A stretch of 64,000 nucleotides of DNA from Verrucomicrobiota bacterium (GTDB lineage Bacteria; Verrucomicrobiota; Verrucomicrobiia; Chthoniobacterales; UBA6821): assembly GCA_021413925.1 (NCBI GenBank), contig JAIOPL010000003.1:1-64000 (forward strand), in the 5' to 3' direction. Numbering within the stretch: position 1 is the first letter of the stretch; each line of letters opens with the position of its first letter. The notes under the pieces were generated by a model. It was given only the letters and a program-made list of their open reading frames with translations. It ran no database searches and was not told the DNA's origin. This document shows, piece after piece, positions 12,545 to 39,236 of the stretch. A program made the translations under genes and the position numbers.

Positions 12545-13840
12545 ATGATTGAACGCTACAGCCGACCCGAGATGCGCTCCATTTGGACGGAGCAACGTAA
12601 ACTGGAAATCTGGCTCGAGATCGAGACTCTGGCCTGCGAGGGGATGGCCGAGCTCGGGATCGTTCCCAAGGAAGATGCCCAGACTATTCGTGAGAAGGGA
12701 ACCTTCCGCATCGAGGAGGTACGCGAAATCGAGAAGAGGACGAATCATGACGTGATCGCCTTCCTGGAGGAGGTCGCCGTCCATGTCGGCGAGCCGGCCC
12801 GCTGGATCCACCGCGGACTTACCTCTTCCGATTTGCTCGACACGACTCTTGCGGTCCAGATGGTCGAGTCGGCAGACATCCTGCTCAAGGATCTTGAGGA
12901 ACTCCTCGTGGCCATCGCCGCCCGGGCCAAGGAGCACAAGTTTACCCCGATGATCGGCCGCAGTCATGGCATCCATGCGGAACCAGTGACCTTCGGTCTG
13001 AAACTCGGCGTGATGTATGATGAGTTCAGCCGATCCATCGAGCGTCTGAAGGAGACCCGCGATCGCGTCGCCTACGGCATGCTGAGCGGTGCGGTCGGGA
13101 CCAATGCCCATCTTGATCTGAAGGTCGAGGCCTATGTCTGCGAAAAGCTTGGGCTGAAGCCCGCCAATATCTCGACCCAGATCATCCAGCGCGACCGTCA
13201 TGCCGAGTTCATGATGACGATTGCCCTGATCGGCTGCTCCATCGACTGCTGGGCCACCGAGTTCCGCCATCTCCAGCGCACCGAGGTGCTCGAAGTGGAG
13301 GAGGCCTTTGCCAAGGGCCAGAAGGGGAGCTCCGCCATGCCGCATAAGCGCAATCCCATCACCGGCGAACGTCTCTGCGGACTAGCCCGTGTCCTGCGCG
13401 GAAACGCCCAGACCGCCATGGAAAATGTAGCCCTCTGGCACGAGCGCGACATCAGTCATTCCAGCGCCGAACGGATTATTCTGCCCGATTCCTGCACTCT
13501 GCTTGACTACATGCTGGTCCTCCTTACCCGTCTCGTGCGCGACCTGACGGTCTATCCGGAGCACATGAAGCGGAACATGGATCTGACTCTCGGACTCTGG
13601 GGAAGCCAGGCGGTCCTGCTCGAGCTCACCGACCGAGGCATGGCTCGTAAGAATGCCTATGAGGCTGTCCAGCGCGCCGCCATGAGGACCTGGGCCGAGA
13701 AGATTCCTCTCCTCCAGACCCTCAGCGAGGAGAGCGAGGTCATGGAGCACATCGATGCGGCCGAACTCAGTCGGATCTGCTCGCCCGAGCGTCACTTCGC
13801 CAACGTGGAGGAGAGGCTTCGTAAGGTCGGCATTCAATAG
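12545..13840 (+). CDS. purB: Adenylosuccinate lyase
   Basis: Catalyses two steps of purine synthesis: SAICAR to AICAR, and adenylosuccinate to AMP, both with release of fumarate. The 431-residue protein fits the short bacterial type. The superfamily signature SSAMPHKRNP is near residues 262-271. The catalytic histidine region TSSDLLDT is near residue 95, and GRSHGIHAEP near 139 is a further conserved block. The start at 12545 follows CTAGACTTCTCCG, again C/T-rich without a Shine-Dalgarno sequence. It sits 78 bp after sucB on the same strand but functionally stands alone. Confidence 0.96.
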   Translation: MIERYSRPEMRSIWTEQRKLEIWLEIETLACEGMAELGIVPKEDAQTIREKGTFRIEEVREIEKRTNHDVIAFLEEVAVHVGEPARWIHRGLTSSDLLDTTLAVQMVESADILLKDLEELLVAIAARAKEHKFTPMIGRSHGIHAEPVTFGLKLGVMYDEFSRSIERLKETRDRVAYGMLSGAVGTNAHLDLKVEAYVCEKLGLKPANISTQIIQRDRHAEFMMTIALIGCSIDCWATEFRHLQRTEVLEVEEAFAKGQKGSSAMPHKRNPITGERLCGLARVLRGNAQTAMENVALWHERDISHSSAERIILPDSCTLLDYMLVLLTRLVRDLTVYPEHMKRNMDLTLGLWGSQAVLLELTDRGMARKNAYEAVQRAAMRTWAEKIPLLQTLSEESEVMEHIDAAELSRICSPERHFANVEERLRKVGIQ

Positions 13841-14108
13841 AAGGCTTGGGATTTTCGCGCATCGCGGCGTTCTGCTGTACTCGCAACGCCGAGTGCTGGG
13901 AAGCACGGAGTAGCCTGTACGAAGTACAGCCCCGAAAGGGGCGAGGCCGTCGGGAGACGGCGAGGCAATATAACTACAGCTTGAACGGCACTTTGCTCCC
14001 GCAAAGCCGTGTCACCCTTCGGATTTTCCTACAGAAACTTCTCCGCTCCTCTTCCCAGAGGCTTGGTTCGCTTGCAGGCCTTGCGCCGCATCGAAACTTC
14101 CAAGCCTT
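13841..14108 (+). ncRNA. Hairpin array, possible structured RNA
   Basis: There is no credible coding sequence here, but at least six stem-loops lie almost end to end. CGGCGTT/AACGCCG is at 13865-13891. GTGCT-GGGA-AGCAC is at 13893-13906, CTGTAC-GAA-GTACAG at 13915-13929, CCCC-GAAA-GGGG at 13930-13941 and GCCGTC-GGGA-GACGGC at 13946-13961. The last is ACGG(CA)CTTTGC-TCCC-GCAAAGCCGT at 13985-14010. Three of the loops are GNRA tetraloops. AAGGCTTGG at 13841 is complementary to CCAAGCCTT at 14100-14108 and could close the whole. An internal AGGCTTGG at 14059 offers an alternative partner. The strand is assumed from the GNRA loops, which read as such only on the plus strand. It could be a structured RNA, the purB 3' region, or a palindromic repeat element; I do not recognise the family. 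Confidence 0.35.
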
Positions 14109-14120
14109 GGGGAAAGATTA

Positions 14121-14192
14121 CTCCGCGGTGAGGAGGCAATGACTTCTCCCGGGAGTTAGAGGCTGCTCGTAGGAAGCTACGGGCGCAGATGG
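14121..14192 (+). pseudogene. Possible short toxin-like remnant
   Basis: The segment 14121-14164 resembles 14764-14808 over about 45 bases, starting CTCCGCGG in both. Translated in the matching frame it gives PR, a stop, then GGNDFSREL, similar to PRRGGGDFL-stop-ELKG of the decayed toxin at 14742-14945. It may therefore be a second, shorter toxin remnant on the other side of the intact toxin-antitoxin pair. The match is short and the call is weak. A further CGTAG-gaag-CTACG hairpin is present near 14168-14181. Confidence 0.25.
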
Positions 14193-14501
14193 TTACTCCT
14201 TAACGAGAGGAACGTCTCCTTGGGCGCAGTGCCAGAAGCGCAGGATCTCGACTTGATCGTCAGTCTCAGAAATCTGGCAAACAATTCTGTAACCCTTATG
14301 GAGCCAGTATCGGTAGGGAACTTCGGGATACTCTGGGCAGACTGGACCTGACAGGGGGTGCTTTCCAAGCATCCGTTCCGCCGCCTCGATCAACGAGTCA
14401 CCCAATTTTGCTGCTGCATTCGGATCGAAACGGGAAATGTAAGAAACCGAATCGGCAAGATCACGGATGGATGTTGGTGCGAAGATTACGCGCCGATCCA
14501 T
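14193..14501 (-). CDS. RelE/ParE-family toxin
   Basis: The 102-residue basic/aromatic protein has the layout of the ParE/RelE toxin fold. An N-terminal helix region (FAPTSIRDLADSVSYIS) is followed by a second helix ending ERMLGKHPLSGP. The C-terminal beta-strands are YRYWLHKGYRIVCQI and VEILRFWHCAQGDVP, equivalent to the YRV(V/L)Y and V.IL.(V/I)xH motifs. Family members act either on ribosome-bound mRNA or on gyrase; sequence by eye does not decide between them. The gene overlaps the upstream antitoxin by 16 bp, the usual antitoxin-first order, so it is co-transcribed and co-regulated with it. It lies in an accessory pocket between purB and nuoH. Confidence 0.8.
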   Translation of the reverse strand: MDRRVIFAPTSIRDLADSVSYISRFDPNAAAKLGDSLIEAAERMLGKHPLSGPVCPEYPEVPYRYWLHKGYRIVCQISETDDQVEILRFWHCAQGDVPLVKE

Positions 14502-14671
14502 TCCCTTAATTTCTTTTTGGAGGTATGCGAATCCATACCCTCACCATCACGGATTTCTCGGGATGCCTCCTCAATGCCAGCTAGGAAGGAAAGCTCGCGG
14601 ATGATCGACAGCAGATCCGTGTTTTCGGGCAATTCACTGATCGCCGTGAGGGCCTGTTCTTTCGTGGTCAT
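14486..14671 (-). CDS. Small antitoxin-like protein
   Basis: The 61-residue acidic protein contains ISELPENTDLLSIIRELSFLAGIEEA and a C-terminal tail with SKKKLREWIGA. This layout (ELPE..., a helix, then DGEG...H...KKxLxxW) resembles the small antitoxin partners of RelE/ParE toxins. I chose the ATG at 14671 because the residues it adds read MTTKEQALTAISELPE, typical of the family. An upstream ATG at 14701 would add ten residues that look non-native. It precedes and overlaps the toxin gene. In such modules the antitoxin normally neutralises the toxin and represses the shared promoter; no operator is evident here. Confidence 0.7.
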   Translation of the reverse strand: MTTKEQALTAISELPENTDLLSIIRELSFLAGIEEASREIRDGEGMDSHTSKKKLREWIGA

Positions 14672-14741
14672 TGATGTTGATATACTCTTGAAAGATCGCA
14701 TTCACAAGCGATTGGCAGACCGCTTCTCCGTTTCAGCGCGG

Positions 14742-14945
14742 GACACTTTTTTTAGTTGGCTGACTCCGCGGCGTGGGGGCGGTGACTTTCTCTGAGAGTT
14801 GAAGGGCTTCCACAGGCTGCGCGTGGGAAGTCACCGGGTGCTCTTCGAGTACAAGATGATAGGCGGCAAAAGAGCTGTCACCTGTGTTTTTGCGGGATCA
14901 CGCCGCTTGATCTACGAGGTATTCCAGAGTCGGTTGACGGAGTGA
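14742..14945 (+). pseudogene. Decayed RelE-type toxin, C-terminal part
   Basis: In one frame the plus strand reads LTPRRGGGDFL, a TGA stop at 14793-14795, then ELKGFHRLRVGSHRVLFEY, followed by a stretch ending AVTCVFAGSRRLIYE and a stop at 14943-14945. The order LKG(F/L)xRLRVGxxRVLFE ... VTxxxxGxRRxIYE is the classic C-terminal half of RelE/ParE toxins. The in-frame stop and the absence of a recognisable N-terminus mark it as a remnant. It is not closely similar to the intact toxin 240 bp away on the opposite strand, so it is not a simple duplication. Together they suggest repeated arrival and decay of toxin modules at this site. Confidence 0.6.
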
Positions 14946-15073
14946 AAATACCGCAAGATGTCTCCCGGATAACGCAGTGAGAGGAGCGCCTAGAAGTGTT
15001 TTTTCTCTCTTGCGTCTCGACACTCAGACGGCGGAAGGATACCACATTTAGGCTTCGATCTTAAACGAGACCC
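14946..15073. other. nuoH upstream region
   Basis: The 128 bp between the toxin remnant and nuoH must contain the promoter of the nuoH-N run, since everything upstream reads the other way or is decayed. It includes a T-rich tract (GTGTTTTTTCTCTCTTGCG) near 14997-15015. I cannot point to convincing -35 and -10 boxes. Confidence 0.3.
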
Positions 15074-39017: not shown

Positions 39018-39106
39018 TGGCGGAGGGGGTGGGATTTGAACCCACGGAGGCTTGTGACCTCTCCAGTTTTCAAGACTGGTGCAATAAACCGCTCTACCAC
39101 CCCTCC
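39018..39106 (-). tRNA. tRNA-Ser (TGA)
   Basis: On the minus strand this folds as an 89-nt class II tRNA. The acceptor stem begins GGAGGGG and ends CCCCTCC, followed by G and an encoded CCA. The anticodon stem-loop is CCAGTCTTGAAAACTGG with anticodon TGA. The long variable arm GAGGTCACAAGCCTC and the T-arm GGGTTCAAATCCC are clear. On the plus strand GAAACCCTAGTTTC, a perfect palindrome, lies just beyond its 3' end and may mark termination. Confidence 0.95.
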
Positions 39107-39236
39107 AAGTAGTAGGAATTGTACGTAATGGGATTGCGGGCCTCAAGTCGAGACTTGAGAGTATTTTCCACCTATTGCCTCGCACCTTCCCAGGGGCTTG
39201 ATTCAGTCGCAGTTGAGAACCCATAGTACTGAATCC

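Follow-up and report, generated by a model that had tools for sequence, protein, structure and literature searches.

What is the dense run of hairpins that follows the purB stop codon in this member of the Verrucomicrobiota? Is it a single RNA, a mobile element, or a chance gathering of palindromes? The window, by which we mean the whole 64,000-nt stretch of contig JAIOPL010000003.1 that was analyzed, carries the run at 13841-14108, and a sequence-only reading had taken it for a structured RNA. What emerges instead is a composite interspersed repeat of uncultured freshwater Spartobacteria (Verrucomicrobiota), of which the segment is a single copy; the family of short dispersed hairpins to which it belongs is apparently undescribed. 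The probability that we attach to this reading is about two in three (0.68), a figure for the explanation as a whole, that is, the composite repeat plus its proposed role as a mobile 3'-UTR hairpin.

The host gene, purB (adenylosuccinate lyase; 12545-13840, plus strand), ends in a TAG at 13838-13840, and the segment begins immediately 3' of that codon. Its outermost 9 bp, AAGGCTTGG at 13841-13849 and CCAAGCCTT at 14100-14108, are exact reverse complements, as had been noticed from the sequence, and the inverted repeat extends to 17 nt with an 88% match. These ends belong to the two arms of a palindromic core, the left (13841-13882, plus strand) having the same sequence as the left arm of minimal elements of ~100 nt found elsewhere and the right (14071-14108, plus strand) ending in CCAAGCCTT. 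Between the arms lie module B (13883-13971, plus strand), to the left of the core apex; a remnant of the apex itself (13972-13978, plus strand), recognized by sequence comparison as AACTACA (compare ATACAGC in minimal cores); and module C' (13979-14070, minus strand), to the right. Covariance models score the modules at 109.6 bits (B, model R1) and 86.4 bits (C', model R2), the window copies being themselves members of the training sets. Module B comprises four plus-strand hairpins: hairpin 1 at 13893-13906 (GTGCT-GGGA-AGCAC), hairpin 2 at 13915-13929 (CTGTAC-GAA-GTACAG), hairpin 3 at 13930-13941 (CCCC-GAAA-GGGG), and hairpin 4 at 13946-13961 (GCCGTC-GGGA-GACGGC). Module C' contributes two stems, at 13985-14010 and 14048-14061, whose loops read TCCC on the plus strand and GGGA on the minus strand. 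All six stems of the sequence-only reading are thus present, but they span 169 nt rather than about 150 bp.

Based on a strict count, 13881-14030 holds 4 non-overlapping hairpins against 1.07 expected; 4 of 1,000 dinucleotide shuffles equal that number and none of the 1,000 equals the GNRA count, so the proposed clustering of tetraloops above chance holds up. The 268 nt fold as RNA at -116.8 kcal/mol on the plus strand (z = -4.8 against shuffles); the minus strand gives a z of -3.6. The reading of the locus as a chance cluster of GC-rich palindromes in an intergenic region is accordingly of negligible probability, ruled out by these shuffles, by the copies, and by the covariation described below.

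The architecture becomes clear when copies are compared. The core is an imperfect palindrome of ~100 nt whose apex holds two optional multi-hairpin modules of ~90 nt each, B (plus strand) and C' (minus strand). In minimal cores, which have no modules (e.g., L012 1440-1542 and L042 442-542), a short apex connects the same two arms that the window copy has, and B and C' are each also found outside any core, as separate dispersed repeats. Read on the minus strand, C' shares the plan of B: a hairpin 1 whose loop is GGGA, then a linker resembling GGAG(T/A)AG, a hairpin 2 that varies, CCCGAAGGG, and finally a hairpin 4, again with GGGA. The B model also matches C' copies, and the C' model matches B-like copies of the sister genus; B and C' are thus homologous to each other. 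The window copy is a mosaic, with two inverted homologous modules set within a palindrome. As a separate observation, standalone C' in L143, L145, L161, and L140 is embedded in short tandemly repeated stretches, for example of GTTAGACT, GTTGAAGG, or TCGAGAG. Elsewhere in the window, a partial and weak C' match (39163-39205, minus strand; 21.9 bits) lies near a tRNA gene (39021-39106).

How widespread is the repeat? In its own genome (G000; 2.4 Mb), the segment has 44 partial matches at a cut-off of E<=10, of which roughly half reach E<0.001, and at E<=0.01 the covariance models detect 29 copies of the core, 47 of C', and 27 of B. BLASTN detects copies in all 16 genomes of the genus and in none of 42 genomes of other genera in the family and order; by the core covariance model (E<=0.01), each of the 16 carries 9-50 cores. 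A pattern scan of GTDB contigs returned records named Spartobacteria or Chthoniobacterales, with the exception of one labelled Proteobacteria. Weaker B-like units are found in the sister genus, 0-44 in each genome, within an element whose ends differ (TAGCCCGGATATTTCAT...). In the sister-genus genome G021, L162 840-1097 and L173 represent this distinct long palindromic element, TAGCCCGGATATTTCAT...ATGAAATATCCGGGCTA with a B-like module, and L173 1087-1250 is a copy of it without the B-like module. Of 289 Verrucomicrobiota genomes sampled evenly, 14, G000 among them, have core-like matches (E<=1e-4), and several of the 14, in other classes, hold multi-copy families; C' outside its own genome appears in one, weakly. 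Core-like families are thus patchy across the Verrucomicrobiota, and the question that they raise reaches beyond one genus.

In all three units, structure is conserved more than sequence. The core (67 copies) has 31 pairs, 89.6% paired, with changes on both sides at 23 and with 256 doubly changed cells, where shuffles give 78. Module B has 25 pairs, 96% paired and 15 changed on both sides, and module C' has 20 pairs, 94% paired and 14 changed on both sides; for B, C', and the core alike, the covariation score exceeds that of every one of 500 shuffles. Counts from alignment A4, which was fitted to the model, lean to the structure, and alignment A3, made without a model, agrees. The compensatory changes among homologues that had been proposed as a check are therefore abundant. 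As for the GNRA loops, the GGGA tetraloops of hairpins 1 and 4 of B are kept among copies, but the GAAA loop of hairpin 3, which had been counted with them, varies. Departures from pairing also speak to the strand: G.T exceeds A.C by 16:4 on the B strand and by 25:7 on the C' strand. In the core, with a constitutive wobble pair set aside, the count is 47 to 52, without bias, which leaves an RNA rather than a DNA role for the core unproven. Because the preferred strands of B and C' are opposite in the window, no single transcript would fold both in their preferred form, and the six stems do not make up one RNA domain.

Where do the cores lie? Usable flanks were available for 64 minimal cores, not all of them independent, since some represent one site sampled in two species. 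To the left of 53 of these cores a gene on the same strand ends, and 48 of the 53 begin at its stop codon or no more than 15 nt from it, in one fixed orientation. When both flanks are known, the distance is at most 15 nt for 43 of 48 cores, compared with 14.5 expected from uniform placement in the same intergenic spaces (z = 12), a null that ignores selection against insertion near promoters. Gene ends in this count are those of mechanical ORFs from short stretches, and single distances may be wrong; for L012, the distance was entered as 4 nt (a TAA in the left flank) instead of the mechanical 323 nt. In some copies the ORF ends slightly inside the core, and several cores supply the AG of the stop codon. 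On the right side, opposite-strand gene ends come that close (<=15 nt) in only 8 of 38 cases, and copies of B and C' that stand alone are not anchored in this way. Among distant Verrucomicrobiota relatives, several core families lie away from stop codons. Near-identical multi-copy core-like elements were noted in two genomes of other classes, G174 (L235-L237) and G215 (L243-L245), away from stop codons. In the portion of the literature on comparable repeats that we consulted, anchoring to stop codons in one orientation was not found described.

Small interspersed repeats are usually held to land where they are harmless. Here, in genomes of ~2 Mb, about three quarters of the sampled cores occupy, in one orientation, an interval of ~15 nt behind a stop codon; placement this strict points either to a targeted insertion mechanism or to a selected, portable mRNA 3'-end module.

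Are these sites stable? The presence of an element at a given gene differs between species. BLASTN comparison with four relatives (G009, G012, G002, and G001) shows that in each of them the purB-nuoH spacer is short and lacks the element, and that homology breaks in the last purB codons and resumes before nuoH; the purB product ends in IQ* in G000 and in IEV* in close relatives. In G000 this spacer holds a 1.1-kb island made up of the element and, after it, a gene for a ParE-family toxin that has a small ORF upstream, and the island was either gained in G000 or lost in the relatives. Four genomes (G003, G006, G010, and G014) have the element behind a fumC-like gene, where nine others lack it. 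Some sites coincide to the nucleotide in two species and retain an intact element. At some of these (e.g., L214/L220) the element is conserved about as well as the neighboring gene, and at others (e.g., L202/L213) it has diverged more than the gene; at sites of the latter kind, replacement by another copy is possible. Extra right half-cores in G009:C153 were considered as cassettes and rejected, as they are joined instead to another repeated sequence.

The toxin gene (14193-14501, minus strand; PF05016, E = 5e-14) borders the segment, which agrees with the sequence-only reading in placing it at the edge of a toxin-antitoxin pocket. The small ORF upstream of and overlapping it (14486-14701, minus strand) has no Pfam or NCBIfam match and presumably encodes the antitoxin. 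A 43-nt direct repeat, 72% identical between its copies at 14120-14162 and 14763-14805, flanks the gene pair, and at 14793-14946 on the plus strand lies what appears to be the C-terminal remnant of another toxin, this one RelE-like (ELKGFHRL...VFQSRLTE*). A gene related to this remnant, in L153 (G000:C1), has a core element directly 3' of it.

In total, these observations are consistent with a mechanism in which the core moves as a hairpin, non-autonomously, and either inserts mostly right at gene 3' ends or is retained mostly there. We infer its mobility, and we posit that it would be cotranscribed as the first part of the 3' UTR, where it would form a rigid hairpin. The mRNA 3' end would then likely be protected or defined, with 3'-5' exonucleases blocked or an RNase III substrate provided; by analogy with work on ERIC and REP (PMC2229807, PMC3733652), we consider this the most likely effect. 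The coding region would be spared, which would make the site tolerable, and B and C' would ride in the apex with the closing stem undisturbed. An intrinsic terminator was also considered and rejected: 13700-14250 contains no GC-rich hairpin followed by a T tract, and the right flanks of cores are not T-rich beyond 1-3 bases, so the element is not a simple terminator.

Could the repeat instead be a MITE, with terminal inverted repeats mobilized in trans by a DDE transposase? We consider this unlikely. Its inverted repeats, its length of about 100-270 nt, its lack of any ORF of known family, and its polymorphic sites would all fit. However, the terminal stem changes by compensation (GGCTTGG/CCAAGCC, GGATTTGG/CCAAATCC, AGGTTGG/CCAACCT), whereas a sequence-bound terminal repeat should stay constant; the changing stem argues against a terminal repeat that is read by its sequence. 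Nor is a constant target-site duplication evident in the core flanks listed, the lone filled/empty comparison with close relatives being confounded by the larger island. No copy with a transposase inside was seen among the loci examined, and no autonomous partner element was found for the core.

Does the strict placement mean that the hairpin is aimed at its sites? A mobile hairpin targeted in sense orientation to the stop codons of expressed genes, for example via mRNA or the terminating ribosome, strikes us as rather improbable. If true, such targeting would amount to RNA-level or transcription-coupled mobility, which is not known for small bacterial repeats.

We hold it slightly more doubtful still that these are REP/BIME-type repeats, with GGAG/GTAG beside the hairpins of B and C', and that a RAYT transposase (TnpA-REP, Y1 HUH) mobilizes them with single-stranded hairpins as its substrate. 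A GGAGTAG does follow hairpin 1 of B, with GGAGAAG or a similar tag in C' and none at the core ends; B and C' are inverted relative to each other, as paired BIME units are; and, in the part of the REP literature consulted, REPs too favor gene 3' ends and can supply a TAG stop (PMC3733652). Against this, 14 of the 16 genus genomes have the repeats and yet no Y1_Tnp (PF01797) match at E<=0.001, the Y1_Tnp gene of G000 is a partial match with no repeats near it among the matches listed, the units measure 90-100 nt rather than 20-40, and a single fixed orientation is not a REP trait described in those sources. The link to RAYT was rejected, since RAYT (PF01797) is missing from most carrier genomes.

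A discrete structured RNA at this locus (a ribozyme, riboswitch, or sRNA), closed by the 9-bp stem, is very unlikely. The strong fold, the conserved GGGA loops, and the covariation would speak for it, and to that extent the original suggestion of a structured RNA survives, as a conserved structure with compensatory changes. What does not survive is the single domain: the 44 partial matches in its own genome mark a multicopy mosaic, dozens of copies stand beside unrelated genes, the compared relatives have no element between purB and nuoH, B and C' fold on opposite strands, minimal cores have none of the six hairpins, and no promoter-like site was found at the segment. An Rfam scan at gathering and permissive thresholds returned no match (best sub-threshold score, 13.8 bits against a cut-off of 40), in keeping with the first impression that no known family fits.

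Are the cores, then, dispersed recombination sites of integrons? Integron attC sites are structure-conserved palindromes that lie right after a stop codon in fixed orientation, and the core resembles them in each of these respects; moreover, some members of the genus carry intI, one with a cassette-like array. We nonetheless consider this reading extremely improbable. The core ends lack R''/R' boxes, and the array has canonical sites, RYYYAAC...GTTRRRY palindromes that do not resemble the core; the core model (R3) finds one core beside the array and none around the other two full intI genes, and an intI match over the cut-off occurs in only 3 of 16 genomes. Identity with attC was rejected after the sites of the array in G001 had been extracted. 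That integron (L251 5562-10021; G001:C154) comprises an intI with one in-frame TAG and a small-ORF array with canonical attC-like palindromes; full intI genes are also found in G015 and G004, and fragments in G009 and G010.

The composite repeat that we favor has its closest known counterparts in pneumococcal BOX, ERIC/NEMIS, and REP/BIME. REP, BIME, and REPIN elements are described, in the sources consulted, as GTAG- and CGTC-tagged palindromes (PMC3733652, PMC2817692), and the present family resembles REP/BIME in its preference for gene 3' ends, its inverted pairs, a repeat end that sometimes gives the stop codon, and G.T pairs in its stems; it differs in its longer unit, four-hairpin modules, absence of a linked RAYT, and fixed orientation. 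ERIC/IRU of enterobacteria and Correia/NEMIS of Neisseria are, as far as the portion of the source consulted goes, palindromes of about 100-150 nt whose hairpins are transcribed and affect mRNA; some NEMIS carry an internal insertion (107 versus 155 bp), and orientation matters for ERIC (PMC2229807). The length class and the internal insertion in some copies are shared with our family. Unlike it, however, those elements count as MITEs with terminal inverted repeats and target duplications, the latter not seen here, and the source portion consulted reports for them no stop-codon anchoring in one orientation; the closing stem that covaries is a further difference.

In architecture, the family is most like pneumococcal BOX, a likeness of plan for which no sequence relation is claimed. 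The account of BOX in Streptococcus pneumoniae and S. suis that we consulted in part describes boxA-boxB-boxC elements in which terminal modules enclose optional, independently folding inner ones, in many intergenic copies, and in S. suis boxB lies between either boxA/boxC or boxE/boxF (PMC3049150). The present family likewise has terminal modules, optional independent internal modules, intergenic positions, and multiple copies, and, as with boxB, the same inner module occurs within different outer ends, B-like units of the sister genus lying between ends of another kind. Unlike BOX, it has a terminal module closely tied to stop codons in a single orientation, and its inner modules are inverted homologues of each other.
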